DNA from: Prolixibacteraceae bacterium
Lineage (GTDB): Bacteria > Bacteroidota > Bacteroidia > Bacteroidales > Prolixibacteraceae
Direction: 5' to 3'
Assembly: GCA_028282195.1 (NCBI GenBank)
Contig: JANQII010000321.1
Span: 1 to 51,599, forward strand
Length of the DNA stretch: 51,599 nt
Part shown: one piece after another, positions 956 to 40,092 of the stretch
Numbering within the stretch: the stretch's first letter is position 1
How the letters are laid out: the number at the start of each line of letters is the position of its first letter
Position numbers and translations under genes: made by a program
The notes under the pieces: generated by a model
What the model saw: only the letters and a program-made list of their open reading frames with translations
What the model was told of the DNA's origin: nothing
The model's database searches: none

Positions 956-2455
956 TTATAATTCGCAATAATTTCCGTCGTCAGTTAAATTTTTGCAAGG
1001 GTACCTCCAGGTACCTGTTTCCACCAAATCATCTGCTACATCTGGTCCCCAGGAACCTGCAGGGTATCCGTAAACAGGGATATCCGAATTGTTTTTCCAC
1101 GCGTTTAAAATAGGTTGAACATACTCCCAGGTCTTTTCTACAGCATCACCACGTGAATATAAGGTTGCATCACCCTGCATGCAATCAAGCAATAAGCGTT
1201 CGTAGGCAGATGGTAAATGTTTATCTGCCAGGTCAGAATAATGAAAATCCATATTGACCGTTTGTACATTAAAACCTGCACCTGGAACTTTCATGCCAAA
1301 CTTTAGTAAAATACCTTCATCTGGTTGTATGCGGATGACCATTTGATTTCCAGCATCAATCGAAAAAGGAGTTTGTCCAAATAAATGCATGGGTGGTTTT
1401 TTAAAATGAATCACTACTTCAGTGACACGGGTGGGTAGTTTCTTCCCTGTCCGAATATAAAAGGGCACGCCGCTCCATCTCCAGTTATCAATGAAAAACT
1501 TCATCCCGAAAAAAGTTTCTGTACGACTTTCGGTATCAACACCTTTTTCCTGGCGGTATCCTTTAACGGGTTCACCTTTTATTTTCGATTCAATGTACTG
1601 TCCTCGAATTACCTGGCTTGCAACATCGTCTTCAGTGAGAGGCCTGAGTGATTGAAAAACTTTCAAAACCTCATTACGTATCGCATCAGCTTCAATTACA
1701 ACCGGAGGTTCCATTGCAACAAAACCAACCAGCTGCATTAAATGGTTTTGAACCATGTCACGCATAGCCCCTGAATGATCATAGTATCCACCACGGTCTT
1801 CAACCCCAAGACTTTCAGCAGAAGTAATTTCAACATGTTGAATAAAATTATGATTCCAGATTGGTTCAAAAATCCCATTTGAAAAACGGGTGACCAGCAT
1901 GTTTTGTACGGTTTCTTTTCCGAGGTAGTGGTCAATTCGGTAAATCTGATCTTCATCAAAATAATTGAGCAGGTTTTTATTGAGTTCTTTTGCAGTTTCC
2001 AGATTAGTTCCAAAAGGTTTTTCAACAATAAGCCTTCGAAAACCATCATTGGGTTTATTTAAGCCAACATTAGAGAGGTTTGCCGGGATAATTTCGTATA
2101 GAGAGGGTGGGGTTGATAAATAGAAAATATAGTTTTCAGCAATTGAATTGGCTTTTGCAATTGATGTTAAACGATCATGCAGAATCGGATATTCATAAGA
2201 TTCAGATGTGCTTAGTGGTTGATAATAAAGCATATCCAGGAATGCGTCCAATTCACTATTGGTTGGTAAAAATTCCTTCATTCGACTACGGAATTCTTCA
2301 TCGGATAAATTTGTACGGCTTACTCCAAGCACTGCAAATTGTTCTGGCAATAGCTTTTGTTTATAAAGAGCATAAAGCGCAGGCACCAATTTTCGTTTGG
2401 TCAGGTCTCCGGATGCACCAAAAATTACCAAAATATGGGGGTCAATATTCTTCAT
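956..2455 (-). CDS. zwf: glucose-6-phosphate 1-dehydrogenase
   Basis: Oxidises glucose 6-phosphate to 6-phosphogluconolactone with NADP+, the entry step of the oxidative pentose phosphate pathway. The 499-aa length is normal for the family. The N-terminus has the dinucleotide-binding motif GASGDLTKRKL, and the middle has the active-site signature RIDHYLGKETVQN with its catalytic His and substrate-binding Lys; further typical blocks are VEKPFGTNLETA and FYIRTGKKLP. It is immediately upstream of pgl on the minus strand, which makes a two-gene pathway operon. The start MKNIDPHILVIFGASGDL places the nucleotide-binding loop at the expected distance from the N-terminus. Confidence 0.97.
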   Translation of the reverse strand: MKNIDPHILVIFGASGDLTKRKLVPALYALYKQKLLPEQFAVLGVSRTNLSDEEFRSRMKEFLPTNSELDAFLDMLYYQPLSTSESYEYPILHDRLTSIAKANSIAENYIFYLSTPPSLYEIIPANLSNVGLNKPNDGFRRLIVEKPFGTNLETAKELNKNLLNYFDEDQIYRIDHYLGKETVQNMLVTRFSNGIFEPIWNHNFIQHVEITSAESLGVEDRGGYYDHSGAMRDMVQNHLMQLVGFVAMEPPVVIEADAIRNEVLKVFQSLRPLTEDDVASQVIRGQYIESKIKGEPVKGYRQEKGVDTESRTETFFGMKFFIDNWRWSGVPFYIRTGKKLPTRVTEVVIHFKKPPMHLFGQTPFSIDAGNQMVIRIQPDEGILLKFGMKVPGAGFNVQTVNMDFHYSDLADKHLPSAYERLLLDCMQGDATLYSRGDAVEKTWEYVQPILNAWKNNSDIPVYGYPAGSWGPDVADDLVETGTWRYPCKNLTDDGNYCEL

Positions 2456-2515
2456 GGTTCAAACTTTTTTTGATAGAACAAGCAATTGTCTTTTAGGTTT
2501 TATAAAAGCTGGCTT

Positions 2516-3142
2516 TTACAGGTTGAATGAATCAACCAGGTAAGCAATAAGTTGGTCATCGTAGTTGAAAAAAATAATCTTATATTCTTTCACCTTTTCT
2601 TCAGAATAAAAATCAGCAAAAACATTTGATTGATCAACTTTCTTTATTTGAATTTGAGTAGAAAAGTGAACACCTGGAATTCCAGCTGCTTTATAAACGG
2701 CTTCTTTCACACACCAGAAAAGAGCCAGTCCATTTTCATATTTTGATGCAAGTTCCAGCTCTTCATCATTCATGAATTTGTGTGCGACTTTCCGAAAATC
2801 ACGATCAGTACTTTCTATATCTAAGCCAACAGCATGATTTTTGTGTAACAAAACGCCAGCCAGTTTATTTGAGTGGCTTATACTAACATGTTGGTATTTA
2901 CTATGCTTAATTGTTGGTTGATTATTTTGGTTGTAATTCACAGAAATGTCCTGACAACCTATATGCTTTAGTATAAGACGAACCGCAAGCCACTCTTTTT
3001 GCCGTTTCGAATTTTTAAGTTTTTGGAAACCTTCCCCAAAATCAATTTCTGAACATTCTTCCAGCAATGAGTCAACATCCTCTTTAATTTCCCAAAGAAC
3101 AAGCAGCCCATCTTTAAATTCTATTTCTTTTAACAATGGCAT
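2516..3142 (-). CDS. 4'-phosphopantetheinyl transferase superfamily protein
   Basis: Likely transfers the phosphopantetheine arm of CoA to a carrier protein (Sfp/HetI/AcpT type). The C-terminal half carries the superfamily core: SISHSNKLAGVL, then GLDIESTDRDFRKVAHKF with the Mg-binding acidic residues, then FWCVKEAVYKAAG with the catalytic WxxKEA motif. At about 208 aa it is the usual size. I chose the start MPLLKEIEF at 3142, which overlaps the end of gldD by a few bases and suggests translational coupling. A PPTase next to gldD/gldE recurs in Bacteroidetes genomes, but the carrier-protein partner cannot be read from this window. Confidence 0.88.
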   Translation of the reverse strand: MPLLKEIEFKDGLLVLWEIKEDVDSLLEECSEIDFGEGFQKLKNSKRQKEWLAVRLILKHIGCQDISVNYNQNNQPTIKHSKYQHVSISHSNKLAGVLLHKNHAVGLDIESTDRDFRKVAHKFMNDEELELASKYENGLALFWCVKEAVYKAAGIPGVHFSTQIQIKKVDQSNVFADFYSEEKVKEYKIIFFNYDDQLIAYLVDSFNL

Positions 3143-3143
3143 A

Positions 3144-3719
3144 TTAGTTTTTCCAGCTGGCTGATTCAATTAAATGTACAATATCGGGTCGTAAAAAATC
3201 GATGACGGGGCGAATGGAATCAATATTCGGTATTTCACGGATGTAAAGTGCACCCCTTAAAAAATGTTTGCTGCTATCGGTTAAAAAGAATTGAATTGGA
3301 GAAGCAGCGTTACCATCAATAAGATATATTGTACCGTAAACATTTTTTTCAGGATTTACATAAACCTGCTCATCAATCGCATCAGCTTTAATGCTGTGTT
3401 TATAAGCCAGCGAACGTGATTCTTCAGTAAGTATATTCAAATTATTTTCAACATGTTTGTAGCTGATATGTATTTCTGCATTATTGTTTTGAATTTCAAT
3501 ATTCCCCCAGTAAAGTTCCGGACCAGCCTGTGTGTCAGGAATTAGCTTGCTGTATTTAGGAATATTGAATTGATAAGGGAAATCATAATCAATGTGCTGA
3601 TATACTTTTTCCGGGAAACTAATCCGGTAATATCCACGAGGTTTTGGGACATACTCTTTTTTACAGGCTGCAAAAAAAAATGCGATTGTTAGTAGTAGAA
3701 GAAAACTTTTTCTGACCAT
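3144..3719 (-). CDS. gldD: gliding motility lipoprotein GldD
   Basis: Predicted lipoprotein of the Bacteroidetes gliding/T9SS-associated set. The start MVRKSFLLLLTIAFFFAAC gives a clean type II signal peptide with lipid-anchored Cys19; the longer frame from 3782 adds a leader that would bury the signal and overlap gldE. The mature part begins KKEYVPKPRGYYRISFPEK, which resembles GldD proteins, and the length (about 191 aa) fits. It lies 10 bases after gldE and just before the phosphopantetheinyl transferase on the same strand, the arrangement known from gliding flavobacteria. GldD is needed for gliding in Flavobacterium; its biochemical role is unknown, and possession alone does not prove motility here. 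Confidence 0.87.
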   Translation of the reverse strand: MVRKSFLLLLTIAFFFAACKKEYVPKPRGYYRISFPEKVYQHIDYDFPYQFNIPKYSKLIPDTQAGPELYWGNIEIQNNNAEIHISYKHVENNLNILTEESRSLAYKHSIKADAIDEQVYVNPEKNVYGTIYLIDGNAASPIQFFLTDSSKHFLRGALYIREIPNIDSIRPVIDFLRPDIVHLIESASWKN

Positions 3720-3729
3720 TCTTTCAGGA

Positions 3730-5049
3730 CTATAAAATTTCGACCTTAATTTTTTTGATGCGGCGATTATCAACTGCTTCAATAGAGAAAACGAAATTTT
3801 CGCATTTTATTTTCTCATGTATTGAAGGAATTTCACCTTTTAATTCAAGAATCAACCCCGCAAGGGTATCTGCATCTCCTTTGTGATCATCAAAAACATG
3901 GTCGTTACTTTCGGTTACCCGATAAAAATCATTAAGCATTATTTTACCATCAAACAGGAATTTATTAGCGGTGATTTTTGTATAGTAGTTTTCATCGTCG
4001 TCAAATTCGTCAGCAATATCTCCCACAATTTCTTCTAAAATATCCTCAAGTGTAACAATTCCGGAACTTCCCCCATATTCATCAACTACGATAGCCATAT
4101 GTACTTTGTTTTTTTGAAATTCTTCCAGAAGGTCATCAATCTTTTTGGTTTCAGGTACATAAAATGGAGGTCGAATAATGGTTTGCCACCGGAATTTTTC
4201 TTTTTTATGAATATGTGGTAATAAATCTTTTATGTATAGTATTCCCCGAATTTGGTCAAAGGTTTCTGAGTAAACGGGAATGCGTGAGTAACCGGAATCG
4301 TTGATAATATTAATTACTTTTTCAAATGAAGCTTTTAATTCAAGAGCCATGACATCTACACGGGGACGCATAATTTCAGCAACATCTTTATTCCCAAACT
4401 TTACAATGCCTTCTAAAATCTCTTTGTCTTCAGAGATCTCCTGATCGGAAGTAAGCTCTAAAGCCTGAGAAAGTTCATCAACTGAAATATTTTGCGAATG
4501 CTTTTGAATCCGTTTATTTACAAATGAAGTGGAGTAAATTAATATCGAGTTCAACGGCCTGAAAAGATGTTCCAATATATTTAAGGGCATTGCCATTAGT
4601 TTTGCAAAATGCATTGAGTGGCGGGTAGCATAAACTTTCGGAATAATTTCGCCAAAAAGAAGAAGAAAGAAAGTAATTACAATAACATTGAAAATAAAGC
4701 CAATTGTTGGTGTAGAAGAAAAATCGATAATCATGTTAGAAGTATAGGCTGTAAGAATTACGATACCTACATTTACAAAATTATTAGCCACCAAAATAGT
4801 GGCTAATAATTTTTCAGGGTGGCTCAAATTATTTAATGTCAAACGACTGTTTTTGTCATTGCTATCTTTCAGCTTGTTCTTGTCATTAGCTGCAAGCGAA
4901 AAATAAGCGACTTCTGAGCCAGAGATTAGCGCTGAAGAAATCAGTAATAAAATAATCAGAAATAAACTGAATAAAACTGTAATTGAAAATGGATAAACCT
5001 GTATATCCCAACTAAAAACGGCTAAATTCGGTAAAGGGTCTGTTTCCAA
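3730..5049 (-). CDS. gldE: gliding motility-associated protein GldE (CNNM/CorC family)
   Basis: Inner-membrane protein of the HlyC/CorC (CNNM) family. The N-terminal third is hydrophobic (DUF21-type transmembrane region with SGSEVAYFSLAAND and FGEIIPKVYATRHS), followed by paired CBS domains (EIMRPRVDVMAL; VVDEYGGSSGIVTLEDILEEIVG) and a C-terminal CorC_HlyC domain, about 439 aa in total. The family is linked to Mg2+/metal transport; in Bacteroidetes the gldD-adjacent member is called GldE. It sits between ssb (19 bases upstream) and gldD (10 bases downstream), an operon-like run. The GldE name rests on this synteny; the transported ion is not established. Confidence 0.88.
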   Translation of the reverse strand: METDPLPNLAVFSWDIQVYPFSITVLFSLFLIILLLISSALISGSEVAYFSLAANDKNKLKDSNDKNSRLTLNNLSHPEKLLATILVANNFVNVGIVILTAYTSNMIIDFSSTPTIGFIFNVIVITFFLLLFGEIIPKVYATRHSMHFAKLMAMPLNILEHLFRPLNSILIYSTSFVNKRIQKHSQNISVDELSQALELTSDQEISEDKEILEGIVKFGNKDVAEIMRPRVDVMALELKASFEKVINIINDSGYSRIPVYSETFDQIRGILYIKDLLPHIHKKEKFRWQTIIRPPFYVPETKKIDDLLEEFQKNKVHMAIVVDEYGGSSGIVTLEDILEEIVGDIADEFDDDENYYTKITANKFLFDGKIMLNDFYRVTESNDHVFDDHKGDADTLAGLILELKGEIPSIHEKIKCENFVFSIEAVDNRRIKKIKVEIL

Positions 5050-20516: not shown

Positions 20517-21242
20517 TTATTCCCAGCCGGAAGCAAGAATATCCGCTATGTGTATAGGCTTGATTGGAATATTATTCTTTTTTATATAGCCTTCAAGATT
20601 TAAAATACATGAAGATTCGGTTGAGATGATATATTCTGCGCCAGTGTTTAATGCGTGTTCCACTTTTTGTTCGGTCATTGCCGAAGAAATAGACTTAAAC
20701 TTTGCTGAAAAAGTACCGCCAAAACCACAGCAAGTAGCTGTTTCTTCCATTTCAATTAACTCCAGGCCTTTTACTTTTGAAAGCAGTTCGCGAGGCTCTT
20801 TCTTAACCCCATATTCCCTTAAGGCGGTACAAGCATCATGATAAGATACCTTATGCGGAAAACTTGCTCCAAAATCAGTGAATTTAATCTTGTTTACCAA
20901 AAAATCAGTTAGTTCGAAAAGTCTTGTCCTAAGCTTTAACTGTATTGCATACTCCAAGTCATTTTTTGTGAATAGCTCAGAATAATAATTCTTGATGAAA
21001 CCGGTGCAGGAAGCTGAAGGGCTTACAATTAAACGATCACCCGGAAAATCTTTGATGAATTTTTTTGCTAAACTTTTTGTTTCATCCCAATAACCACTGT
21101 TATAGGCCGGTTGGCCACAACAGGTTTGTTCGGGATTATAATTTACGGTTACACCGGCTTTCTTCAGCAGTTTTACAACATTAAAAGCTGTGTCAGGATA
21201 AATTTGATCAATAAAGCAGGGGATAAAAAGATCGATTTCCAT
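20517..21242 (-). CDS. CCG-domain Fe-S oxidoreductase subunit (LutA/GlpC-like)
   Basis: A 241-aa protein with two cysteine-rich CCG domains: TCCGQPAYNSGYW at Cys41-42 and TCCGFGGTFSAKF at Cys171-172, with partner cysteines at FIPCF and HDACTALR. This architecture is that of LutA (lactate oxidation) and the heterodisulfide reductase/GlpC-type electron-transfer subunits. LutB and LutC, normally encoded beside LutA, are absent here: the neighbours are tRNA-Trp upstream and an ABC exporter gene on the other side. The reaction is therefore not assignable with confidence; lactate or glycolate oxidation is the likeliest role. Confidence 0.82.
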   Translation of the reverse strand: MEIDLFIPCFIDQIYPDTAFNVVKLLKKAGVTVNYNPEQTCCGQPAYNSGYWDETKSLAKKFIKDFPGDRLIVSPSASCTGFIKNYYSELFTKNDLEYAIQLKLRTRLFELTDFLVNKIKFTDFGASFPHKVSYHDACTALREYGVKKEPRELLSKVKGLELIEMEETATCCGFGGTFSAKFKSISSAMTEQKVEHALNTGAEYIISTESSCILNLEGYIKKNNIPIKPIHIADILASGWE

Positions 21243-21286
21243 AGGTAAACAAATTTGCCCGAATTTAAGAAAAGAATGGTAAACAA

Positions 21287-21310
21287 AAAACCTCGCTTAA
21301 GCGAGGTTTT
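21287..21310 (-). terminator. terminator of tRNA-Trp
   Basis: Perfect palindrome AAAACCTCGC-TTAA-GCGAGGTTTT with a further T-run on the minus strand, directly downstream of the tRNA. Confidence 0.8.
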
Positions 21311-21311
21311 G

Positions 21312-21384
21312 CACGGGAGGAGAGACTCGAACTCCCGACACCTGGTTTTGGAGACCAGTGCTCTGCCAACTGAGCTACACCCGT
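21312..21384 (-). tRNA. tRNA-Trp (anticodon CCA)
   Basis: Read on the minus strand, a 73-nt cloverleaf starts ACGGGTGTAGCTCAGTTGG, has the anticodon stem CTGGT/ACCAG around loop CTCCAAA (anticodon CCA), the T-arm loop TTCGAGT, and acceptor 3' strand CTCCCGT plus discriminator G. One acceptor pair is T-T. CCA is not encoded. A bidirectional palindromic terminator follows at once. Confidence 0.95.
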
Positions 21385-21482
21385 GTGTGAATGCGAGTGC
21401 AAATATAGTAAATCCTGCAAAACAACCTAAGAAAAAATAAAATTTAGTGGATACGTTATGTCTTGTGTTTTTTCACCATAAA

Positions 21483-30166: not shown

Positions 30167-30418
30167 TTTTCTGTTTTGTTTTTTCATGAACATCTATTCT
30201 GGCTTAAATGAATTTTCTAAATTTCGATGGTAAAAGTATATCCGGATAAGCCTGTAATTATTAAGAAGTTTACCGGGCTGATAAAATTCAATACTGAAAT
30301 GAATTTAAAGTGAGGTGAAATGACAAGTTAGTTTAATACAGAAGCTGAGCTAAGTAATATTTCTTTGAGAAGGTAGAGTTTTACAGACATGTTTGTAGTG
30401 AAATACCTATGCAGAATC

Positions 30419-30565
30419 ATTCTGCTTAGTTATTTTTCTATTCTGCATTGCTATTATGGAATTCTTCACGACTATTATATCATTCTTCACGATTATTATA
30501 TCATTCCTCATGGCTATTATTCTATTCTGCACAATCATTTTTCCATTCTTCTTGTCTTTTACAGT
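30419..30565. repeat. array of seven 21-bp imperfect tandem repeats
   Basis: Units at 30419, 30440, 30461, 30482, 30503, 30524 and 30545, each 21 bases, all beginning ATTC with consensus ATTCTKCAYGNYTATTATNT. The two best units (30461-30481, 30482-30502) differ at one base. The first unit also forms GCAGAAT-C-ATTCTGC with the preceding bases. The array lies in the 518-base gap between the end of the PUL regulator gene and the start of the efflux operon, about 250 bases upstream of the adaptor. A reading frame across it is just the repeat translated. Confidence 0.85.
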
Positions 30566-30684
30566 TACAATAACCACATCTATTTAGCCTTTTATAGTAT
30601 TTCACATTGATAAGCTTACATACTATCAAGCTATGATAATCTTAAAATAAATTTGAAAACAGTTTTAGCGAAAGATACTATAGT

Positions 30685-33510
30685 TTATAGCGTTAGAATC
30701 AGGTCAATCAACTTTTCATCATGTTCCAGATGCATTTTTTTGCGCAAGCGATAGCGGTGGTTTTCAACTCCACGTACTGAAATTCCAAGTAGAGGAGCAA
30801 TTTCTTTTGAAGAAAGGTTCATTCTTAAATAAGCGCAAAGGCGCAGGTCTTTTGAAGTTAAATCCGGATACTGTTCTTTTATTTTGTATAAGAATTGTTC
30901 GTGAGCCCGTTCAAAATTGGTTTCGAATAATTGCCAATCGTCATGGCTGGTAATATTTTCTTCGATTTTATTTGAAAGATGATTGAAATATTTGTCAGGA
31001 TACCTGGAACCTAATTCTTCTTTTTGCTTGACCAGGATTTTTTTTAGATCAAGAAGAAACTCATTCTTTTTAATAATTGACATGGTTGAGTTTGCCAATT
31101 CTTTACTTTTATGGGACACTTCGTTTCTCAACTTCTCGTTTCTTAATTTGATTAGCTCTTTTTCTTTCTTTTCGTGCTGAACCTGAATTTTCTTTTTGGT
31201 TTGTTTTATAACCCGGCTTCTTACGCCGATTAGTACTAAAATAAGAAGAATCACATATAATATTCTGGCAACTATGGAAGCATACCAGGGCGGTAATATT
31301 TCAATTAGAAGTTCGTATACCTGACTTTCATTATCCCACAAATCAACTGCTTTAACCAATAATTTATAGCTGCCTTCAGGAAGACGATCAAAGCGAAAAT
31401 CGGGTTCAGGTATTTTTTCAGACCAATTAAGATATAGACCTTCAAGATGGTATTGATAGTTAATTGCTTGTGCCGTATACTGTGGGAAGGCAAACTTAAG
31501 GCTTAAGTTGTGGTAGTTGTGTTTGACTTTAATTTCCTTACTTTTTGTGGAGAGCTTTTGAATGTTCCCTCTGTTATTATTTAGTTCCAGGACGCGAAGT
31601 TGGGGTGTAAACTGATTAATAAGAAGTGCTGTGTCTGATACTGATGCATCAAGATGTGCAATTCCATTCTGGAGGCACAGGATCGCTTTTGTTTCAGTTA
31701 GTGGCATTATATTTTCAAAACCATCAACTAAAGGATTTGTATTAAAAAGCTGGGTCGGGTATTCATGTATTAATTTAACAGAGTCCTGTGAAATCTTAAA
31801 AAGTCCGATGTGTTTGCTGTTTAAAAACCAATAGTGATGGTTCGGAGCTTTTACTATCCTGCTTGAGCTGGCATATTTATCAAGATGTTTGTTTAAAGAG
31901 GTAAAAGGAACAATGGTATCATTTAAATCATCAAATGTGTATAGTTGCTGATTGGTTGTGAAAACGATCCTGTCCTCAACTTCGAAAACATGAACTGAAT
32001 GGTCTTTCCCAAAAACATTGGCTCCATAATACTTTTCATGTATTATATTTTCCCTGCTGTCATCAAGGTAAAGTTTGAAAATGCCCCGGTGCATGTGGCT
32101 TGCCCAAAGGTTTCCCATGTGGTCAACTTCAATGTAACGAATAAGGTCATAAAACCCCTGAATGTTTTTATTCAGTTCATATTCTTCGCCAACTTTTTTA
32201 TAGGTAACAAGACTTGAGTAAGTTGACTGCATCAGCTTGTCCGGGTTCTTTTTGTCTTTAAGGATTGCAAACCCTCCGGAGTGATGAGATATGCGGTTTG
32301 CATTCATTCCTTCAACAATAAAAGTACCTTCGTTATGACCCGCAAAAAGATGATCATCTATAATTTTTAAGTCCCAGACCTGGGCTTGTGTGTTTGGAAT
32401 AAGTTCGAACCTGGTATCAGAACTGGAAATTTGTTTTGCAAATAAGCCTTGATTGGTTCCCAAATAGAAATAACCTTTATGAATAGCAGCTGCATAAACT
32501 GCCCCGATATCAGGGATACTTTCTATTTTGTAGCTTTTCTTCCCGTTGTTGGCGATAAAACCAATTCCACGATCAAGTGCAATCCAAATGTTTCCCCACG
32601 GGTCACTATTAATCCCGAGTACAGTATTGTTCGGAAGCCCAACAGATGTATTTACCTTTGAAATGAGGTTCCCATTATTGTCAAAAATGACAATACCATC
32701 AATGATAGAACCAATTACAACATTCCCGTTTTTAGTTACATGTCCACGGTTTACATCGTGATCAATGAAGTATTGGGTCCAACCTGGGTTCCAGGAAGTA
32801 ATTTTTTTTTGATCGAGAACAAATATACCATATGATGAAGTTCCTATCAGGATTTTGTCTTCTTCAAAAGGCAGTAGGAAACGAATCGTTTTATCCTCAA
32901 AAAACGGATCGGTTATATATGGTTTAGCAACATTATCTTCAATTTGATAGATGCCCCTGTCTTTGATAGAAAATAGAATTTGATCCCTTACCTTACTCAT
33001 CAGGCTGGTAAATCCGGGGAAACTAACTTTATAAATTGAATCATTCCGGAAGGCAAGGATTGAACCATACGACTGAAAATAGACAGTACTGTCATCAACT
33101 TCAATATTCCAGAATTCTTCATTTTTTGTGAAAAATTGTTTTGCTTTTTCTGATAGCGAATAATATTGAAGTGTTCCAAATTGATCCGGTTTCCAGTATC
33201 CCAGTTCCAAATATCCACCTGTATAAATGATGGAATCTGAGGCAACATTAACATCACGTAAAGTCGTATTATTGGGCAGGCTGTGTAATTTCCAGCTAAC
33301 TCCATCAAACTGCAAAAGCCCCTGGTGATTGGCAAAGTAAATAAAACCATCCTTTGTGGTACTTATACTCCAGTTTTGGCTTGCTGCACCATAATCCAGT
33401 TTTTCATACTGCTTAATGTTGGATTGGGGTTCAAACCCCAAACTATTTAAGCCAATAAAAATGGAAGAAAGGAATACTAAGAGATAATATGTCGTTAGTG
33501 AGCGATTCAT
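30685..33510 (-). CDS. Y_Y_Y/beta-propeller sensor-regulator with C-terminal LuxR-type HTH
   Basis: A 941-aa membrane regulator. After a signal/anchor segment (1-22) comes a long region of two-component-regulator propeller-like repeats (about 30-640; for example NNTVLGINSDPWGNIWIALD), then a Y_Y_Y domain (about 665-735; INYQYHLEGLYLNWSE), one transmembrane helix (about 745-765), a coiled-coil stretch, and a LuxR-type HTH at the end (LSSKEIAPLLGISVRGVENH). It resembles the sensors of hybrid two-component systems but has no histidine-kinase or receiver domain, so it would signal directly across the membrane. Position beside susC/susD suggests it senses the PUL glycan. A ~100-bp repeat shared with the susC upstream region lies just upstream of its start. 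Confidence 0.88.
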   Translation of the reverse strand: MNRSLTTYYLLVFLSSIFIGLNSLGFEPQSNIKQYEKLDYGAASQNWSISTTKDGFIYFANHQGLLQFDGVSWKLHSLPNNTTLRDVNVASDSIIYTGGYLELGYWKPDQFGTLQYYSLSEKAKQFFTKNEEFWNIEVDDSTVYFQSYGSILAFRNDSIYKVSFPGFTSLMSKVRDQILFSIKDRGIYQIEDNVAKPYITDPFFEDKTIRFLLPFEEDKILIGTSSYGIFVLDQKKITSWNPGWTQYFIDHDVNRGHVTKNGNVVIGSIIDGIVIFDNNGNLISKVNTSVGLPNNTVLGINSDPWGNIWIALDRGIGFIANNGKKSYKIESIPDIGAVYAAAIHKGYFYLGTNQGLFAKQISSSDTRFELIPNTQAQVWDLKIIDDHLFAGHNEGTFIVEGMNANRISHHSGGFAILKDKKNPDKLMQSTYSSLVTYKKVGEEYELNKNIQGFYDLIRYIEVDHMGNLWASHMHRGIFKLYLDDSRENIIHEKYYGANVFGKDHSVHVFEVEDRIVFTTNQQLYTFDDLNDTIVPFTSLNKHLDKYASSSRIVKAPNHHYWFLNSKHIGLFKISQDSVKLIHEYPTQLFNTNPLVDGFENIMPLTETKAILCLQNGIAHLDASVSDTALLINQFTPQLRVLELNNNRGNIQKLSTKSKEIKVKHNYHNLSLKFAFPQYTAQAINYQYHLEGLYLNWSEKIPEPDFRFDRLPEGSYKLLVKAVDLWDNESQVYELLIEILPPWYASIVARILYVILLILVLIGVRSRVIKQTKKKIQVQHEKKEKELIKLRNEKLRNEVSHKSKELANSTMSIIKKNEFLLDLKKILVKQKEELGSRYPDKYFNHLSNKIEENITSHDDWQLFETNFERAHEQFLYKIKEQYPDLTSKDLRLCAYLRMNLSSKEIAPLLGISVRGVENHRYRLRKKMHLEHDEKLIDLILTL

Positions 33511-33550
33511 TGAGCCGGTATGGTGTTTTAGGTTAAAGCCTGGTCAAAAT

Positions 33551-33650
33551 AAATGGATTTTCTTTTCAAATAAAATAAAATTGAGGGCTTTATGCTTTTT
33601 TTTAACGCTGTATGTTATAAGTCATATAGTTAACTTTACATAAATATGAT
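33551..33650 (+). repeat. regulatory direct repeat, copy A (upstream of PUL regulator)
   Basis: Aligns without gaps over the first 80 bases to 35221-35300 with about 76% identity by my hand count, then with one-base offset through TAAATATGA. Both copies carry an inverted pair TCATAT ... ATATGA (33622-33627 and 33644-33649 here, 16-base spacer). It is 41 to 140 bases upstream of the regulator start. The rest of 33511-33953 is AT-rich, with the BrnT promoter at its end. Confidence 0.75.
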
Positions 33651-33941
33651 AGTTTGAAGTTTTTTACATTCTTGTTAATCGGTTAGTTTTGTGTGGATGA
33701 ACGTAAATCTTCCTTCGAAATGTGAGTTAATTGAGTTTTATAAAATTAATGGTTATCCTTTTCCATCACAAAAAATTCAAAGTAGTTATTGAAAACATCG
33801 TCTATCTTTGAAAAACGGGAAATAAGGCATTTATTAGCTACCCCGGGGAACTGCATATGGGAAGTTGAGATAGCTTAAAATGATCCTTCATAACAAATGA
33901 GAATTCTTTATTGATTTGTTGACATAAAGCACACAGTGTAC

Positions 33942-33949
33942 TATATTTG
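33942..33949 (+). promoter_or_regulatory. promoter of the BrnT/BrnA-like pair, almost on the start codon
   Basis: TATATTTG is an exact -7 element and TTG lies about 20 bases upstream (TTGACATAAAG). Only four bases separate the -7 box from the ATG at 33954, so the transcript would start at or next to the start codon: a leaderless mRNA, or a start slightly further in. Confidence 0.6.
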
Positions 33950-33953
33950 TAGC

Positions 33954-34238
33954 ATGAACATTTTCAACTGGAATGAGGAAAAAAACAAATGGTTAAAAGA
34001 GAACCGGAACATCGGTTTTGAAGATATTGTATTTCTGATTAGTGAAGGGAATTTGATAGAAGTTATCAGAAACCCCAATGCCCAATATATTAACCAATTC
34101 ATGTTCGCTATCAATTTTGAAGGTTATATCTATTTGGTTCCGTTTGTAACTAATGAAAATGAAATATTTTTAAAAACCATCATTCCCAGTAGAAAGGCAA
34201 CAAAAAAATATTTAGGAGGAAAAAAAGATGAAAAATAA
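33954..34238 (+). CDS. BrnT-like toxin
   Basis: About 94 aa. It has the BrnT-type layout: N-terminal FNWNEEKNKWLKENRNIGFED, a central strand pair (IYLVPFVTNENEIFLKTIIP) and the C-terminal SRKATKKYLGG. BrnT proteins are RelE-like ribonucleases that cut mRNA at ribosomes or free RNA. The sequence is a divergent member, so nuclease activity is inferred. I chose the ATG at 33954 (MNIFNWNEEK) rather than 33936, because the upstream codons lie in the promoter element. It overlaps the antitoxin gene by 11 bases. The module sits between a PUL regulator and susC. Confidence 0.75.
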   Translation: MNIFNWNEEKNKWLKENRNIGFEDIVFLISEGNLIEVIRNPNAQYINQFMFAINFEGYIYLVPFVTNENEIFLKTIIPSRKATKKYLGGKKDEK

Positions 34239-34506
34239 CCTCGATAAAGAAGAAAAAGGGTTACTGGAATCATTCGGGAAAGGTGAGTGGGAGAAAATCC
34301 CAAACCAGGATGCGGAGTTGAAGAAATTCCAGCAAATCGCAAAAGAATCCCTGAAGAAAGACCAACGCATTAATATTCGGATTTCGGGTAGGGATTTGAG
34401 GGAGATAAAAAGAAAGGCTGTTCATGAAGGAATACCCTATCAGACCCTGGTCTCCAGTATTTTGCACAAATATGTGAGCGGAAGACTTATTGATAAAACT
34501 GGTTAG
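34228..34506 (+). CDS. CopG/RHH-type antitoxin (BrnA-like)
   Basis: A 92-aa basic protein. The C-terminal half has a ribbon-helix-helix DNA-binding segment: RINIRISGRDLREIKRKA, then EGIPYQTLVSSILHKYVSGRL. The N-terminal half is acidic and flexible (LESFGKGEWEKIPNQDAELK), as expected for the toxin-binding part. Overlap with the toxin gene gives coupling, and the RHH domain would let it repress its own promoter at 33942. Confidence 0.8.
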   Translation: MKNNLDKEEKGLLESFGKGEWEKIPNQDAELKKFQQIAKESLKKDQRINIRISGRDLREIKRKAVHEGIPYQTLVSSILHKYVSGRLIDKTG

Positions 34507-35220
34507 AAAAGTGTTGCAGTTAAATGTTTATTGTACCGTTTAATCTTCTTGCTTTTTCTCAGAAAAATGTTTTAAATCATTCATAACAAGTGCGTTATGA
34601 TACATGTAAACTATAAGGTGAACTAAATATTTTGTCAAGTTTAGGTCGCCTTTTATTTTGTATGTTTAATAAATACTAACATTACAGAAGATTATGGTAT
34701 AGCCCCGTTTGATATAAAATGGATTTTTTCGGTGGCTTATCTGATGATCTTTTTAGGATCAGTTGATATTTTTGTGGATTAAGCAGGATCAATTGAAAAA
34801 GTAGGTGGATGTATTCACACTTCCTTAACTGATCCTTGTTCCCGGATTTTCAGGTTGAAAGGTTTAACTGTAAGAATAGAGGAATGGGAGGATGAGGGAG
34901 CAGTAGCCTCTGACTTAACCCGTAACCCGAAATAAATATCTTACCTGGCTCTTGGTTCCTGATTCCTGATTCTTTTGAATTCCTTATCACTTTCCTTCTA
35001 TAGGATATATGTACTCATGCACGTTGGTACTTTTTTCATCTTTATCACTTTGTTTCTTTTTTACTGTTTTGAATAAGTTTAAGCATAAAATAAAAATCCA
35101 CCGGAAATTCCATTTGATCCTCTTTTTAACGGTTTAGTTTCAAATTGAAACCCACGTTCTCTGAACGCGGTCAGAGTATCTATGTGAGTTTGTCTCAGTT
35201 AGCAAAATCTTAAGCCAACG
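34507..35220. other. AT-rich non-coding gap between TA module and susC regulatory block
   Basis: No convincing gene. A short plus-strand open stretch ending near 34780 translates as DYGIAPFDIKWIFSVAYLMI followed by FLGSVDIFVD and a stop; it reads like the tail of a membrane protein and may be a relic, but it has no start or family match I can name. The remainder is AT-rich with scattered stops. Confidence 0.4.
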
Positions 35221-35320
35221 AAATGGTTTTTTTTCGTAAAAAAAATAAAAATAAAGGCTTTGTTCGTGTTTTTTACTCAGCATGTTATAAATCATATAAT
35301 TGACTATTACTTAAATATGA
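35221..35320 (+). repeat. regulatory direct repeat, copy B (upstream of susC)
   Basis: Second copy of the block at 33551-33650, same orientation. The inverted pair TCATAT (35292-35297) ... ATATGA (35315-35320) has a 17-base spacer. It lies about 150 bases upstream of the susC -7 element and 190-290 bases upstream of the start codon. Confidence 0.75.
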
Positions 35321-35471
35321 CAAAACTGTGCTTTTTATGTTTTTGTATATCAGTATTTTGAATCTTATGAAAATTTCAATGATGAGGTAATGATGAGGTG
35401 TAAAATCATATTCATCAGGCATAGAGAATTAGAAGTGTATTGAATTTTCAAAAAAAAGTTTTTAGCCACTC

Positions 35472-35479
35472 TAATTTTG
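35472..35479 (+). promoter_or_regulatory. -7 element of susC
   Basis: TAATTTTG, an exact TAnnTTTG, 28 bases before the susC ATG. No clear -33 box at the standard spacing, consistent with an activator-dependent promoter. Confidence 0.55.
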
Positions 35480-35507
35480 AAACCAAACTGATTCAAAACA
35501 ATAGACT

Positions 35508-38500
35508 ATGAAAAAATTAACGTTTCTTTTTTATTTGTTCTTATCAGTTACAACTGTTTTAGCACAACAAAAAAATGTTGTTACAGGAAATGTAACTGAA
35601 TCTGCAAATGGTGAACCGATTCCCGGTGTTAGTGTCATTGTAAAAGGCACAACAATTGGAACAATCACTGATTTTGATGGTAACTACTCAGTTGAAGCAA
35701 CAGGTGCTGATGTGCTTGTTTTCAGCTTTGTTGGATTGACAACCCGGGAGGTTGCAATTAATAATATGAATACGATCAATGTATCATTAGATGAGTCAAC
35801 TGAACTGGTTGATGAAGTGGTTGTTGTAGGTTACGGTACTTTAAAAGTAAAAGACCTTACCTCGTCCATTTCTACAGTAAAATCTGAAGACCTTATAAAA
35901 ACCCCTACCGGTCAGGCGATGCAGGCATTGCAAGGTAAAGTAGCTGGTCTACAGGTTGTAAGTGCCGGTTCGCCGGGTGAATCCCCAACCATACGTGTAC
36001 GAGGTATAGGTTCATATCCGGGAAGGGGAAATGAGGATCCGCTGTATGTAGTTGATGGGGTATTTTTTGACAATATAGATTTTCTGAATACCGCGGATAT
36101 TGCTTCCGTTTCAGTATTGAAAGATGCTTCTGCTGCTGCAATTTATGGCGTACGTGCAGCAAATGGCGTTGTTCTTATTGAAACAAAATCAGGGGCACAT
36201 AACCAAACTGCTGAAATCGTATACAATGGCTACTATGGTTATCAGGTTGCACAGAATGTGTTAAAAATGGCTAATGCCGAGCAATTCACAAACATGGCCC
36301 TTGAATCTGGTTCAGCGGCTGATGCCAGCTTCATTTTAAATGCGATGCAACGCTATGGGAGAAGCCGGATAAATCCAAATGTACCTGATGTAAATACGGA
36401 TTGGTATGATGAGATAATGCGTGTTGCCCCAATTCAAAATCACAGTTTAAGTGTATCGGGAGGTAGCGATAAAGCAACTTATTCTATCGGATCAAGTTAC
36501 TTTGCCCAGGAAGGTATTCTGGATATGAAAAATGAATACGAACGTTTTAACCTTCGATCTAAAATTGATTACAATGCTAATGACTGGCTCACAATTGGAG
36601 GTAACATGATTTTCAGTAATGCTACTAAATACCTTCCTGAGTTGGGGGCATGGAACCAAGCCTATTTTGCAGTTCCCATTCTTCCGATTTATGATGAAGA
36701 GAACCTGGTTGCAACACCAATCAACTTTGCCAGTGCACAGGACATTGGTTACCGTGGAGGACAGAACCCATTTCCGACTTTAGAGTTTAATGAAAATCGT
36801 CAAAAGATTAGAAAGGTTTTGGCGAACTTCTACGCTCAAGTTGAAATACTTCCTAAAAAACTAACTTTTAAAACTACCTATAACCATAGCTTTACATCAA
36901 TTGATCAGCGTAATGTAAACTTACCATATTTTATTAGTAATAATTTTAAAAGAGATAATGCCTCATTAGTAAAAAGATCAGAAACATACTCCAATCAAAC
37001 CTGGGATAATGTGTTAACATATAATGATACTTTTGGAGATCATAAATTGGTTGCTATGGTAGGTTCATCTTATAGGGATGAAGCCTGGGATATGCTTACA
37101 GCAAAAGGATTAAATTTTCCAATTGATCAAGACAATGCATGGTATTTGGCACAGTCTGATGAAATTGTAGTTGAAGAAAATAATAGACGTGTAGTAACTG
37201 ATGATGGACTTCGTCAATATGGAATGTCTTATTTCGGAAGGGTTTCGTATAACTATCAGGACAAATACTTATTGTATGGTACAATGAGGGCTGATGGCAG
37301 CTCTAAATATCAACAAAAATGGGGATACTTCCCAACAGTTGGTGTTGGCTGGGTTATTTCTGAAGAAAGCTTTATGGAGAATAATGGAGTGGTTGACTTC
37401 CTGAAATTGCGTGGCAGCTGGGGGGAATTAGGTAACGATAAAATTCAGGCAAGCGATGGCGCTTCAACGACTTCAGTTGTAACAGGTGCTTTCGATGATG
37501 TATTGCTTTCCGGAAATACAACTTCAAATACATTTTCTTCTTTGAAGTGGGAGGTAACCGAAGAAATAAATGCAGGCCTTACTGCTCATTTGTTAGATAG
37601 CAGGCTTGTTGTGGATGCTGATTATTTTATCAGGGATACTAAAAATGCTGCAATCAATGTAATTATTCCATCTGTTGGGGGAAGCGTTTTGAAGAATGTT
37701 GGAGAAATCAGAAACTCCGGTTTTGAACTTACATTGAACTGGAGCAATCAAATCTCAAAAGACTTAAGCTATAATGTTTCAGCAAACATTTCAACGTTAA
37801 AGAATGAAGTTCTGGACTTGTTCGGCCAACCACATATTGATGGAGGAACAGCTGAATTCCGTCAGCGTTCAATTGTTGGAGAACCATTACTGGCTTTTTT
37901 TGGACGCGAGGTACTTGGTGTTTATCAAACTGAAGCTGAAATTCAGGCTGACCCAATTGCTGTTGCGAATAATCTGGAACCTGGGGATTTTATTTATAAA
38001 GACCAGAACAATGACGGGAAAGTAGATGATGATGACCGTGTTGTGTTAGGTTCTTATTTCCCAACTTTCATGTATGGTTTTAACCTTGGAATTAACTATA
38101 AAAACGTTGAATTTTCAACAAGCCTGATGGGACAATCAGGAAATAAAATCTTAAACCGTAAGCGTGGTCAGCTAATCTGGACTAACGATGGAAACCTGGA
38201 TGCAGATCTTGCTAAAAATCGCTGGCATGGTGAAGGTACTTCCAATAAATACCCTTCTTCAAAAGGATTACGTAAAGGATGGAATCAAAAAATGAGTGAC
38301 TATTTTGTAGAAGATGGTTCTTTCTTTAGAATTCAAAATGTTCAACTGGCCTATAATATCCGTGGAAAGAAATGGTTCGGTACACAAATTCCTGAATCAA
38401 GAATTTCATTAACAGCAGAGCGCCCATTAACCGTATTCAACTACAACGGCTTTAATCCTGAAGTTGCTAATGGTATTGATATGCAAACCTACCCGGTTCC

Positions 38501-38537
38501 TGCAGTATATACAATTGGGCTGAATGTTAAATTTTAA
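35508..38537 (+). CDS. susC: SusC-type TonB-dependent outer-membrane glycan transporter
   Basis: A 1009-aa RagA/SusC-family transporter. Signal peptide (1-19, TTVLAQ), an N-terminal carboxypeptidase-regulatory-like domain (about 24-105; GEPIPGVSVIVKGTTIGTIT), the SusC-specific TonB box/linker (ELVDEVVVVGYGTLKVKDLT), a plug (about 115-225) and the long beta-barrel ending INIGLNVKF-like (TIGLNVKF). It imports oligosaccharides with SusD as lid, powered by TonB. It is the first gene of the PUL transport block, 13 bases ahead of susD. Confidence 0.96.
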   Translation: MKKLTFLFYLFLSVTTVLAQQKNVVTGNVTESANGEPIPGVSVIVKGTTIGTITDFDGNYSVEATGADVLVFSFVGLTTREVAINNMNTINVSLDESTELVDEVVVVGYGTLKVKDLTSSISTVKSEDLIKTPTGQAMQALQGKVAGLQVVSAGSPGESPTIRVRGIGSYPGRGNEDPLYVVDGVFFDNIDFLNTADIASVSVLKDASAAAIYGVRAANGVVLIETKSGAHNQTAEIVYNGYYGYQVAQNVLKMANAEQFTNMALESGSAADASFILNAMQRYGRSRINPNVPDVNTDWYDEIMRVAPIQNHSLSVSGGSDKATYSIGSSYFAQEGILDMKNEYERFNLRSKIDYNANDWLTIGGNMIFSNATKYLPELGAWNQAYFAVPILPIYDEENLVATPINFASAQDIGYRGGQNPFPTLEFNENRQKIRKVLANFYAQVEILPKKLTFKTTYNHSFTSIDQRNVNLPYFISNNFKRDNASLVKRSETYSNQTWDNVLTYNDTFGDHKLVAMVGSSYRDEAWDMLTAKGLNFPIDQDNAWYLAQSDEIVVEENNRRVVTDDGLRQYGMSYFGRVSYNYQDKYLLYGTMRADGSSKYQQKWGYFPTVGVGWVISEESFMENNGVVDFLKLRGSWGELGNDKIQASDGASTTSVVTGAFDDVLLSGNTTSNTFSSLKWEVTEEINAGLTAHLLDSRLVVDADYFIRDTKNAAINVIIPSVGGSVLKNVGEIRNSGFELTLNWSNQISKDLSYNVSANISTLKNEVLDLFGQPHIDGGTAEFRQRSIVGEPLLAFFGREVLGVYQTEAEIQADPIAVANNLEPGDFIYKDQNNDGKVDDDDRVVLGSYFPTFMYGFNLGINYKNVEFSTSLMGQSGNKILNRKRGQLIWTNDGNLDADLAKNRWHGEGTSNKYPSSKGLRKGWNQKMSDYFVEDGSFFRIQNVQLAYNIRGKKWFGTQIPESRISLTAERPLTVFNYNGFNPEVANGIDMQTYPVPAVYTIGLNVKF

Positions 38538-38550
38538 TTCTTAAACAAGT

Positions 38551-40092
38551 ATGATTATGAAACTATTAAAATATACAATAAAGCTCACATTATTTACAGC
38601 AATACTTTTGGCTGCACCAGCCTGTGAAGACATTTTGGATGAGCCAGCTGAAAATAAATCGTTCACAGAAGAAACGGATTATACAAAATCCGAAGATATG
38701 ATCTTACCTCTAATTGGTGCCTATTCCGAATTTTATTCCCGTGGATGGGAAGAATTTCCATTGCTTTCGGTACGTGGAGATGATGTAAACCATGGTGGTT
38801 TGGGTGATCAGCAGGACTATGCAGAAACTGATAAATTTAATTATAACAAGGATTATTGGATGTACAACTCTTTATGGCAAAATTACTATAGGGATATGTA
38901 CCACGCGTATTCGTCGCAAGACCAAATAGAGTTATATAAAGAAAATGGAGCAAACGCTTCTTTAGCTGATCAGTATATTGCAGAAACTAAAGTATTGAGA
39001 GCCTGGTATTTATTCCAATTAGCCCGTGTTTGGGGTGAAATTTTAATTCCTGCCAGTTCTGATCCATCTGATCTGTTGATTGTTGAATTGTCAACCAAGG
39101 ATGAGGTCATGCAGTTTATTTCTGATTTAATGGATGAAGCTATTCCTTCATTGGTTGACAGCCATCCAAATCAAAGAACTGATGTAACCGGGGGGGCTAC
39201 TAAATATACTGCACTTGCGTTGAAAGCTTTGGCAAATCTGGAGAAGAAAAATTACCAGGGAGTGGCTGATGCAACTTCACAAATTATTAGTTCAAACAAA
39301 TTCAGTTTAGAACCGGATTTCTATGAATTATTTAAAATTAAAGGCAAGTTGAACAATGAGAATATCCTTGAACTTCAATACTCTGATTTTGGGCAAGGAG
39401 CAGGGGATATCAAAAGCCACCTGTTTGCATTTTATGGTCCTCAGGGTTGGACACCAAAAGTTGAAGGGGCAAGCAGTGGATGGGGATTTTATGAACCAAG
39501 TTTAAAATGGATTAAGTTCATGCTTGACCGTGGAGAAACCATTCGTCTCGAAACAAGTGTTTTGTTTACGGATAGAGGAATTGCAGAAATTCAAAAAGAT
39601 CCGAATTATGCAAATTTACCTGCTTTTGTTTCAAACACTACCCGTTCAGGGGATCGTATCAATGACTATGCAAGAGCAATGTTTGCGAGTGGTAAGCATT
39701 ATTTACCATCAGATCAACTCACTTCAGGACGTACAGGCTATGGGAATAACAAAAACTTCACGTGTATCCGTTATGCCGAAATTTTGTTAATGCATGCTGA
39801 AGCTCTGACACAAGGTGCATCAGGTTCAGCTATGTCTGCTGATGACGCAGTTAATGCAGTAAGATCCAGAGCAGGTTTGCCAGCTCTTTCTGGGGTAACC
39901 AACGAACAAGTAATGGATGAAAAATTCGCTGAATTAGCAATGGAGTGGGGAACCCGCTATTACGATATGGTTAGACTTGAAAGAAACAGTGACCTTAGTT
40001 ACGAAGGCAGATCATTCAGTGCTGATTTGACTTTCTTGCCTTATCCACAGAACCAGGTTGATTTGTTGCCAGCTTTACAAAGCGATAACTAA
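38551..40092 (+). CDS. susD: SusD/RagB-family outer-membrane glycan-binding lipoprotein
   Basis: A 513-aa lid protein of the SusCD complex. Lipoprotein signal with Cys in LLAAPACEDILDE; the acidic residues right after the Cys fit a Bacteroidetes surface-export signal. Mostly helical TPR-like fold with SusD signatures YIAETKVLRAWYLFQLARVWGEI and CIRYAEILLMHAEAL, and a C-terminal ELAMEWGTRYYDMVRLER. Start may be two codons later (MKLLKYTIK, 38557). Ligand is inferred from the enzymes downstream. Confidence 0.95.
   Translation: MIMKLLKYTIKLTLFTAILLAAPACEDILDEPAENKSFTEETDYTKSEDMILPLIGAYSEFYSRGWEEFPLLSVRGDDVNHGGLGDQQDYAETDKFNYNKDYWMYNSLWQNYYRDMYHAYSSQDQIELYKENGANASLADQYIAETKVLRAWYLFQLARVWGEILIPASSDPSDLLIVELSTKDEVMQFISDLMDEAIPSLVDSHPNQRTDVTGGATKYTALALKALANLEKKNYQGVADATSQIISSNKFSLEPDFYELFKIKGKLNNENILELQYSDFGQGAGDIKSHLFAFYGPQGWTPKVEGASSGWGFYEPSLKWIKFMLDRGETIRLETSVLFTDRGIAEIQKDPNYANLPAFVSNTTRSGDRINDYARAMFASGKHYLPSDQLTSGRTGYGNNKNFTCIRYAEILLMHAEALTQGASGSAMSADDAVNAVRSRAGLPALSGVTNEQVMDEKFAELAMEWGTRYYDMVRLERNSDLSYEGRSFSADLTFLPYPQNQVDLLPALQSDN

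Follow-up and report, generated by a model that had tools for sequence, protein, structure and literature searches.

The paper that gives the consensus of Cur (BT4338, MalR) of Bacteroides is said to be that of Ravcheev et al. from 2013. In the excerpt of PMC3878776 the Crp-family consensus of Cur is wwwTATGTTnTAnAACATAwww, and the motifs of SusR-like regulators are long direct repeats 67 or 77 bp apart; these SusR-like PUL regulator operators are predictions, and the word LuxR does not occur in that excerpt. In Bacteroides thetaiotaomicron, the strongest enrichment for BT4338 was at fusA2, where both BT4338 binding and activation were lost when such a site was deleted (PMC6989115, excerpt). 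In the arabinan PUL of B. thetaiotaomicron the local sensor BT0366 has a promoting role, and full activation needs BT4338 (PMC5061871, excerpt).

The PUL and its sampled relatives

The window (the whole stretch of 51,599 nucleotides that was analysed) holds a susC/susD pair, glycan-active enzymes and a linked regulator, the combination by which the locus is classed as a PUL. Its main genes are:

30685–33510, minus strand: PUL regulator of 941 aa with Y_Y_Y and a C-terminal LuxR/GerE HTH (Pfam)
35508–38537, plus strand: gene for a susC-like TonB-dependent transporter (Plug, CarbopepD_reg_2)
38551–40092, plus strand: susD-like gene (SusD_RagB, E = 6.2e-22)

In the regulator, the GerE match (E = 5.9e-06) is above the Pfam cut-off, and the Y_Y_Y match (E = 1.3e-05) scores 25.5 bits for a cut-off of 26.6. 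Genes for a LamG-like protein, two PF10091 proteins (glycoamylase-type), GH43, GH3 and a sulfatase lie 3′ of susD on the plus strand. The gap between the regulator and susC is AT-rich and measures 1,997 bp. No Rfam family matched at gathering scores between 30000 and 36000, and a scan for the sigma-70 consensus was uninformative (11 found, 9.4 expected).

Of 61 genomes, 45 (the window's own included) contain a match to the regulator at E ≤ 1e-30. The 102 regulator loci that were fetched comprise 80 named loci and 22 stretches from upstream regions, including two next to paralogs from the same genome. A susC divergent from the regulator was present in 51 of the 102; none was found in the other 51, some of which are short contigs. 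Six duplicates and one locus with a 1,834-bp gap (L074) were removed from the 51 divergent loci, leaving 44 relatives and, with the window, 45 promoters for comparison. The spacing from the regulator match to susC is 308–730 bp in the 44 relatives. A promoter profile and an alignment were built from 24 of these 44, chosen by hand.

The direct repeat and its two copies

The initial annotation had described a direct repeat of about 100 bp at about 76% identity, with one copy upstream of the regulator and the other upstream of susC, and the coordinates of both copies agree with that description:

33551–33649, plus strand: copy A, a duplicate of the susC promoter's upstream half, adjoining the regulator (by identity to copy B)
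35221–35320, plus strand: copy B, the upstream part of the presumed native susC promoter (by identity to copy A)

Positions 33551–33635 and 35221–35305 are identical at 65 of 85 bases (76%) without a gap, and with short gaps the match reaches 33649 and 35320. The local alignment score of 88 was equalled by none of 1,000 dinucleotide-preserving shuffles (mean 23.8, sd 2.4, maximum 36), and the alignment stands clear of shuffled sequence. Aligned without gaps elsewhere in the window, copy A reaches at most 43/85 identities on the plus strand and 44/85 on the minus strand. The pair TCATAT-N16/17-ATATGA, reported near the right end of each copy, was recovered as described: TCATAT starts at 33622 and 35292, ATATGA starts at 33644 and 35315, and the spacings are N16 and N17. 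TCATAT forms the right-hand half of a palindrome (33611–33626 and 35281–35296). The two copies had also been said to face the same way, which holds on the forward strand, where both are in plus orientation, but not relative to their neighbour genes, with respect to which they point in opposite directions because the regulator is on the minus strand and susC is on the plus strand.

Two candidate operators upstream of susC

Three matches to a Crp/Cur-type site fall between the regulator and susC (no strand is assigned to any of them):

33611–33626: Crp/Cur-like palindrome TATGTTATAAGTCATA of copy A, 12/14 to the consensus, score 11.5
34564–34583: third, weaker Crp-like matrix match AAAATGTTTTAAATCATTCA, inside the insert between the copies, score 8.5
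35281–35296: Crp/Cur-like palindrome CATGTTATAAATCATA of copy B, at −227 from susC, 12/14 to the consensus, score 14.3

The scores come from a matrix built on sites outside any PUL. Six Crp-type genes above the Pfam cut-off are present in the window's genome, and only one (G000:C274:80731-81429) has a 12/14 site in its promoter; it was picked for the matrix because its promoter alone reached 12/14. The best solved relative of its product is 2gau, of the Crp/Fnr family (E = 1.2e-59), and 32 of 41 genomes, its own included, contain a match to the gene at E ≤ 1e-60. Two of the 32 matches were not fetched and four of the other 30 were skipped as having no readable start, which left 26 loci. In 24 of these 26, GATGYTGTANAACATA or a close variant of it is present in the promoter, and in 20 of the 24 the site starts directly on the last base of TTTG; the remaining two loci are below the matrix score limit. 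Among the skipped loci, L178 has a 12/14 site at −30, L176 an 11/14 site at −70, L179 a 10/14 site far upstream, and L181 a 9/14 site. The symmetric matrix was derived from the 24 Crp-type gene promoter sites, which had themselves been selected by likeness to the published consensus.

Over 51,580 positions in the window, this matrix ranked 35279 (copy B) first, 17583 second and 33609 (copy A) third. Its best match falls at −224 to −232 from susC in 11 of the 45 promoters; column-shuffled matrices gave a mean of 1.8 promoters, and 2 of 2,000 reached 11. The 11 sites are not all independent, since those of L055/L040, L033/L037 and L058/L095 are identical, and the sites of L058 and L095 score only 5.2. 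By position, 11 of the 45 promoters, the window's among them, have a palindrome that starts between −225 and −230 from susC, while the same kind of palindrome lies at −115 to −120 in six others and at −221 in one. A score of at least 7.5 at any position is reached in just 16 of the 45, and none of the 44 relatives has a second site of that score; the window alone has two or more. The match at 34564 may be due to chance in 1,997 bp of AT-rich sequence. On the grounds of the fit to the consensus, the ranks given by the Crp-gene matrix and the fixed position in the promoter, we infer that the palindrome is a Crp/Cur-type site and a candidate for binding by a Crp-type protein.

No clear genome-wide excess of Cur-like sites was seen with strict patterns, which alone were used for this search: the first gave 8 matches for 4 in the control, the second 2 (one palindromic place) for 2, and the third 2 for 0, one of the latter being copy B and the other lying in no evident promoter. 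At the genus's EF-G2-like gene, six of 20 loci were readable and none has a good Crp-like site, with matrix scores of 4.8 in the window's genome and 7.4 at most. A weak search of the literature found no published regulon of this kind for this bacterial group.

Nearer to susC, three further elements were recognised:

35383–35399, plus strand: TGAGGT-N5-TGAGGT, a direct repeat that the LuxR-type regulator may use as its operator (hexamer count)
35424–35439, plus strand: susC promoter element GAGAATTAGAAGTGTA, conserved (aligned promoters of 24 relatives out of the 44)
35472–35479, plus strand: TAATTTTG, the susC promoter's putative −7 box (position of TAnnTTTG)

TAnnTTTG is the −7 box of Bacteroidota. 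It is present at −46 to −28 in 21 of the 45 susC upstream regions, and a "−7 consensus" is also named in the excerpt of PMC6989115. The profile of 24 relatives finds copy B in the window (35281–35501, E = 3.3e-29) and nothing else significant there, copy A not being detected. Because its elements are shared with the promoters of relatives and because the profile matches it, copy B is, as judged from this conservation, the native susC promoter.

Among all 4,096 hexamers, TGAGGT is the commonest at −136 to −108 from susC (31 of 45 promoters), and an exact pair at a step of 11 bp is present within the upstream 330 bp in 15 of 45. The form TGAGGT-N2-T-N2-TGAGGT has 10 exact matches in the 61 genomes. 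Five of these are, by their coordinates, in the susC promoter considered here (the window, G001, G006, G029 and G035) and the other five are elsewhere, including one in the window's own genome (G000:C92:5984); the control gave 30 matches, 28 of them in the single genome G041. The strict direct-repeat pattern ATGAGGTNATNATGAGGT is present in only 2 of the 61 genomes. From its position and spread we infer that TGAGGT-N5-TGAGGT, near −125/−114, is probably a likelier operator of the LuxR-type regulator than the palindrome is.

Origin of copy A and comparison with known systems

The DNA between the copies contains the following:

33911–34511, plus strand: TA-like module that includes its own candidate promoter at 33919–33949 (homologous DNA in relatives)
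33954–34238, plus strand: gene for a BrnT-like toxin of 94 aa (PF04365, E = 1e-05, 26.2 bits for a cut-off of 34.5)
34228–34506, plus strand: gene for a CopG-like antitoxin of 92 aa (PF12441, E = 4.4e-06, 27.8 bits for a cut-off of 28)
34603–34711, no strand assigned: dispersed repeat fragment, matched at 78–84% in G005 and, at contig ends, in G002
34834–35054, no strand assigned: sequence with a 68% copy elsewhere in its own genome (G000:C255)
35131–35177, no strand assigned: hairpin-bearing repeat fragment with 87–94% copies in G015, G016, G002, G003 and G010

The candidate promoter of the TA-like module combines TAnnTTTG at 33942 with TTGACA-17-TATATT. DNA homologous to the module is present at 66–74% in G034, G016, G031 and G009, on contigs other than that of the regulator; CopG-like matches were found in 6 of the 61 genomes, its own included, and BrnT- or CopG-like proteins in none of the 102 fetched regulator stretches. 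Repeated elements tend to sit near contig ends. Many copies of the fragment at 35131–35177 are near contig ends, and the fragment is probably the end of a mobile element.

To the left of the palindrome, the spacers of the two copies (33551–33605 and 35221–35275) align with a local score of 43, reached by 0 of 2,000 shuffles. The same spacers do not align with the 10 relatives compared (best local score 25 for copy A and 22 for copy B). Because copies A and B share a spacer that is not conserved in relatives, copy A is a duplicate by descent, and the duplication is, on this comparison, later than the split from the sampled relatives. The initial annotation had offered, as an alternative, that a duplication of the regulatory block accompanied the origin of the TA-bearing segment, and this suggestion is supported: the 44 relatives lack the TA pair and the second copy, and the spacer is private to copies A and B. 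The simplest history would start from an ancestral divergent gap holding a single promoter block; duplication and the arrival of mobile DNA in the gap, in one order or the other, would then have produced the present arrangement.

Right of 33650 the similarity between the copies is weak. As good a match was given by 6 of 2,000 shuffles for 33650–33740 against 35320–35402, by 26 of 2,000 for 33700–33815 against 35366–35482, by 71 of 2,000 for 33650–33820 as a whole and by 1,083 of 2,000 for 33650–33700 alone. When copy A was compared with 10 relatives, 59 of 400 shuffles did as well. An intact TGAGGT-N5-TGAGGT was not found in copy A, in which one further feature is suggestive only:

33723–33737, plus strand: possible decayed direct repeat of copy A (TGAGTT at 33723 and 33732)

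The reading that we favour, and consider probable, is that copy B is the working susC promoter and copy A a duplicate left beside the regulator, the two having been parted by mobile DNA and the TA-like module. A Crp/Cur-family protein at the site about 227 bp before the susC start would gate susC by the general carbon state, the LuxR-type sensor-regulator would bind TGAGGT-N5-TGAGGT about 125/114 bp before susC and gate it by the specific glycan, and the promoter would be served by a −7 box some 36 bp ahead of the start codon. The palindrome lies about 190 bp upstream of the presumed susC transcription start, which is far for a Crp-type activator, and it might act by DNA bending or by contact with the regulator, not by direct contact with polymerase. 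The divergent gap between regulator and susC would have been duplicated and opened by mobile DNA carrying the TA-like module, with copy A staying beside the regulator; its upstream half (spacer and Crp-like site) is clear, and the remainder may have decayed or be absent.

Copy A may be a working element of the regulator or a relic. That it was kept to serve the regulator, the duplication having given each of the parted promoters its own Crp-like site, is possible but doubtful: its palindrome is 101 bp from the regulator start, and its score of 11.5 remains in the range seen at relatives' sites, yet no TAnnTTTG is directed toward the regulator (minus strand, 33511–33960), and conservation of the palindrome does not significantly exceed that of the remaining block (4 mismatches in 25 positions against 16 in 60, p = 0.40). 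It is unlikely that copy A was the promoter of an earlier susC operon, arranged in tandem, that has been lost and replaced by the TA module and repeat debris. Such an origin would fit the weak extension of copy A through the direct repeat and −7 region (the 6 and 26 of 2,000 shuffles above) and a TAnnTTTG at 33803, which lies 192 from the palindrome of copy A, compared with 191 in copy B. However, tblastn with nine PUL proteins gave no convincing match in 33511–35507 (best E = 0.22), ruling out that remnants of coding sequence from susC or another PUL gene lie in the gap, and the divergent arrangement of relatives has one susC adjoining the regulator.

The initial annotation had itself proposed that the repeated block is an operator through which the LuxR-type regulator controls both its own gene and susC, giving autoregulation and PUL activation, a proposal that now appears decidedly unlikely. 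It would account for one copy before each gene and for a palindrome scoring at least 7.5 beside the regulator in 16 of 45 intergenic regions, and LuxR-type HTH proteins can bind palindromes. Against this, the palindrome fits the matrix from Crp-gene promoters, 29 of the 45 intergenic regions lack a site of at least 7.5, and TGAGGT, at −136 to −108 in 31 of 45, is the most widespread element. The distance from the palindrome to susC is also nearly fixed (225–230 bp), whereas that to the end of the regulator match is 146–301 bp, or about 139–217 bp after correction for unmatched regulator residues. Conservation of the paired motif before homologous regulator and susC genes did not hold up either, ATATGA following the palindrome in 1 of 10 relatives, and there at another spacing. 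Finally, similarity of copies A and B through chance or AT bias, for which the AT-richness of both blocks might speak, is refuted by the 1,000 dinucleotide shuffles, none of which reached the observed score, and by a next-best ungapped match of 44/85 against 65.

Returning to the favoured reading of copy B as the working promoter and copy A as its parted duplicate, the module between them resembles BrnT/CopG type II TA systems in that its two small genes overlap and match BrnT_toxin and CopG_antitoxin weakly; it differs from members of those families in that both scores are below the Pfam cut-offs, CopG just and BrnT well. As with SusR-like regulators, a direct-repeat operator is proposed for the PUL regulator, but the TGAGGT step is 11 bp here rather than 67 or 77 bp between centres, and the window's regulator, unlike SusR-like regulators, carries a recognisable GerE HTH. 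The palindromes share their geometry and 12 of 14 core positions, in both copies, with the Cur (BT4338, MalR) sites of Bacteroides in the excerpt of PMC3878776, and a similar site precedes a Crp-type gene of the window's genome. Unlike Cur, there is no visible regulon by strict patterns and no good site at the EF-G2-like gene, and here the site is far upstream of susC. It is conceivable, if rather doubtful as a whole, that TGAGGT-N5-TGAGGT is the operator class of the order's Y_Y_Y/LuxR-type PUL regulators, that the Crp/Cur-like site has shifted between about −227 and about −117, and that TA insertion with block duplication left the regulator and susC each with a Crp-like site of its own.

Phylogenetic footprinting here resolves two separate candidate sites in one promoter, of which the local regulator would use one and a global carbon switch the other. 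If this assignment is correct, the Cur-type site extends from Bacteroides to Prolixibacteraceae and neighbours. The locus also illustrates how mobile DNA can split a divergent promoter with one copy remaining on each side. The closest parallel is the arabinan PUL of B. thetaiotaomicron, with which this locus would share a local glycan sensor and a global Crp-type activator; the local regulator there is the HTCS BT0366, whereas here it would be a Y_Y_Y/LuxR protein. By analogy, we would expect susC to need both the glycan-sensing regulator at TGAGGT and a carbon-state Crp-type protein at the palindrome. The locus would represent a familiar type of control in a new setting and with an unusual split, in which two candidate operators can be told apart.

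Crp-like site and susC in relatives

In relatives of the window's genome, the candidate Crp-like site, a palindrome common to copies A and B, also occupies a second class of position, at -115 to -120 relative to the start of susC, versus about -227.

Loci with the Crp-like site at -115 to -120, upstream of susC: L044, L068, L070, L071, L082, L086

The match to susC in another locus, L040 (genome G032), is interrupted by approximately 1 kb (about 1505-2527, window orientation), suggesting that this susC carries an internal insertion.

Repeats and a second CopG-like sequence

A repeat with a hairpin (CCACGTTCTCTGAACGYGG) is located at window 35131-35177, and several copies lie close to contig ends in relatives; it probably marks where a mobile element, as yet without a name, terminates. 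Repeated HDYYIIL-like units make up a low-complexity open frame at window 30389-30610, between efflux genes and the regulator. A partial CopG-like gene is present at a second place in the window's genome (G000:C119:48845-48961), sharing 85% DNA identity across 104 bases with the window antitoxin gene.

Apparent PUL remnant in a same-genus genome

Locus L210 (G003:C7, positions 1449-3816), from a genome of the window's genus, contains DNA matching window 20533-21436 followed by apparent PUL remnants. Only the ends of the regulator (C-terminal) and sulfatase are left, which suggests that a deletion removed the PUL there. Between these two ends lies an open frame resembling a transposase of the IS3 type.
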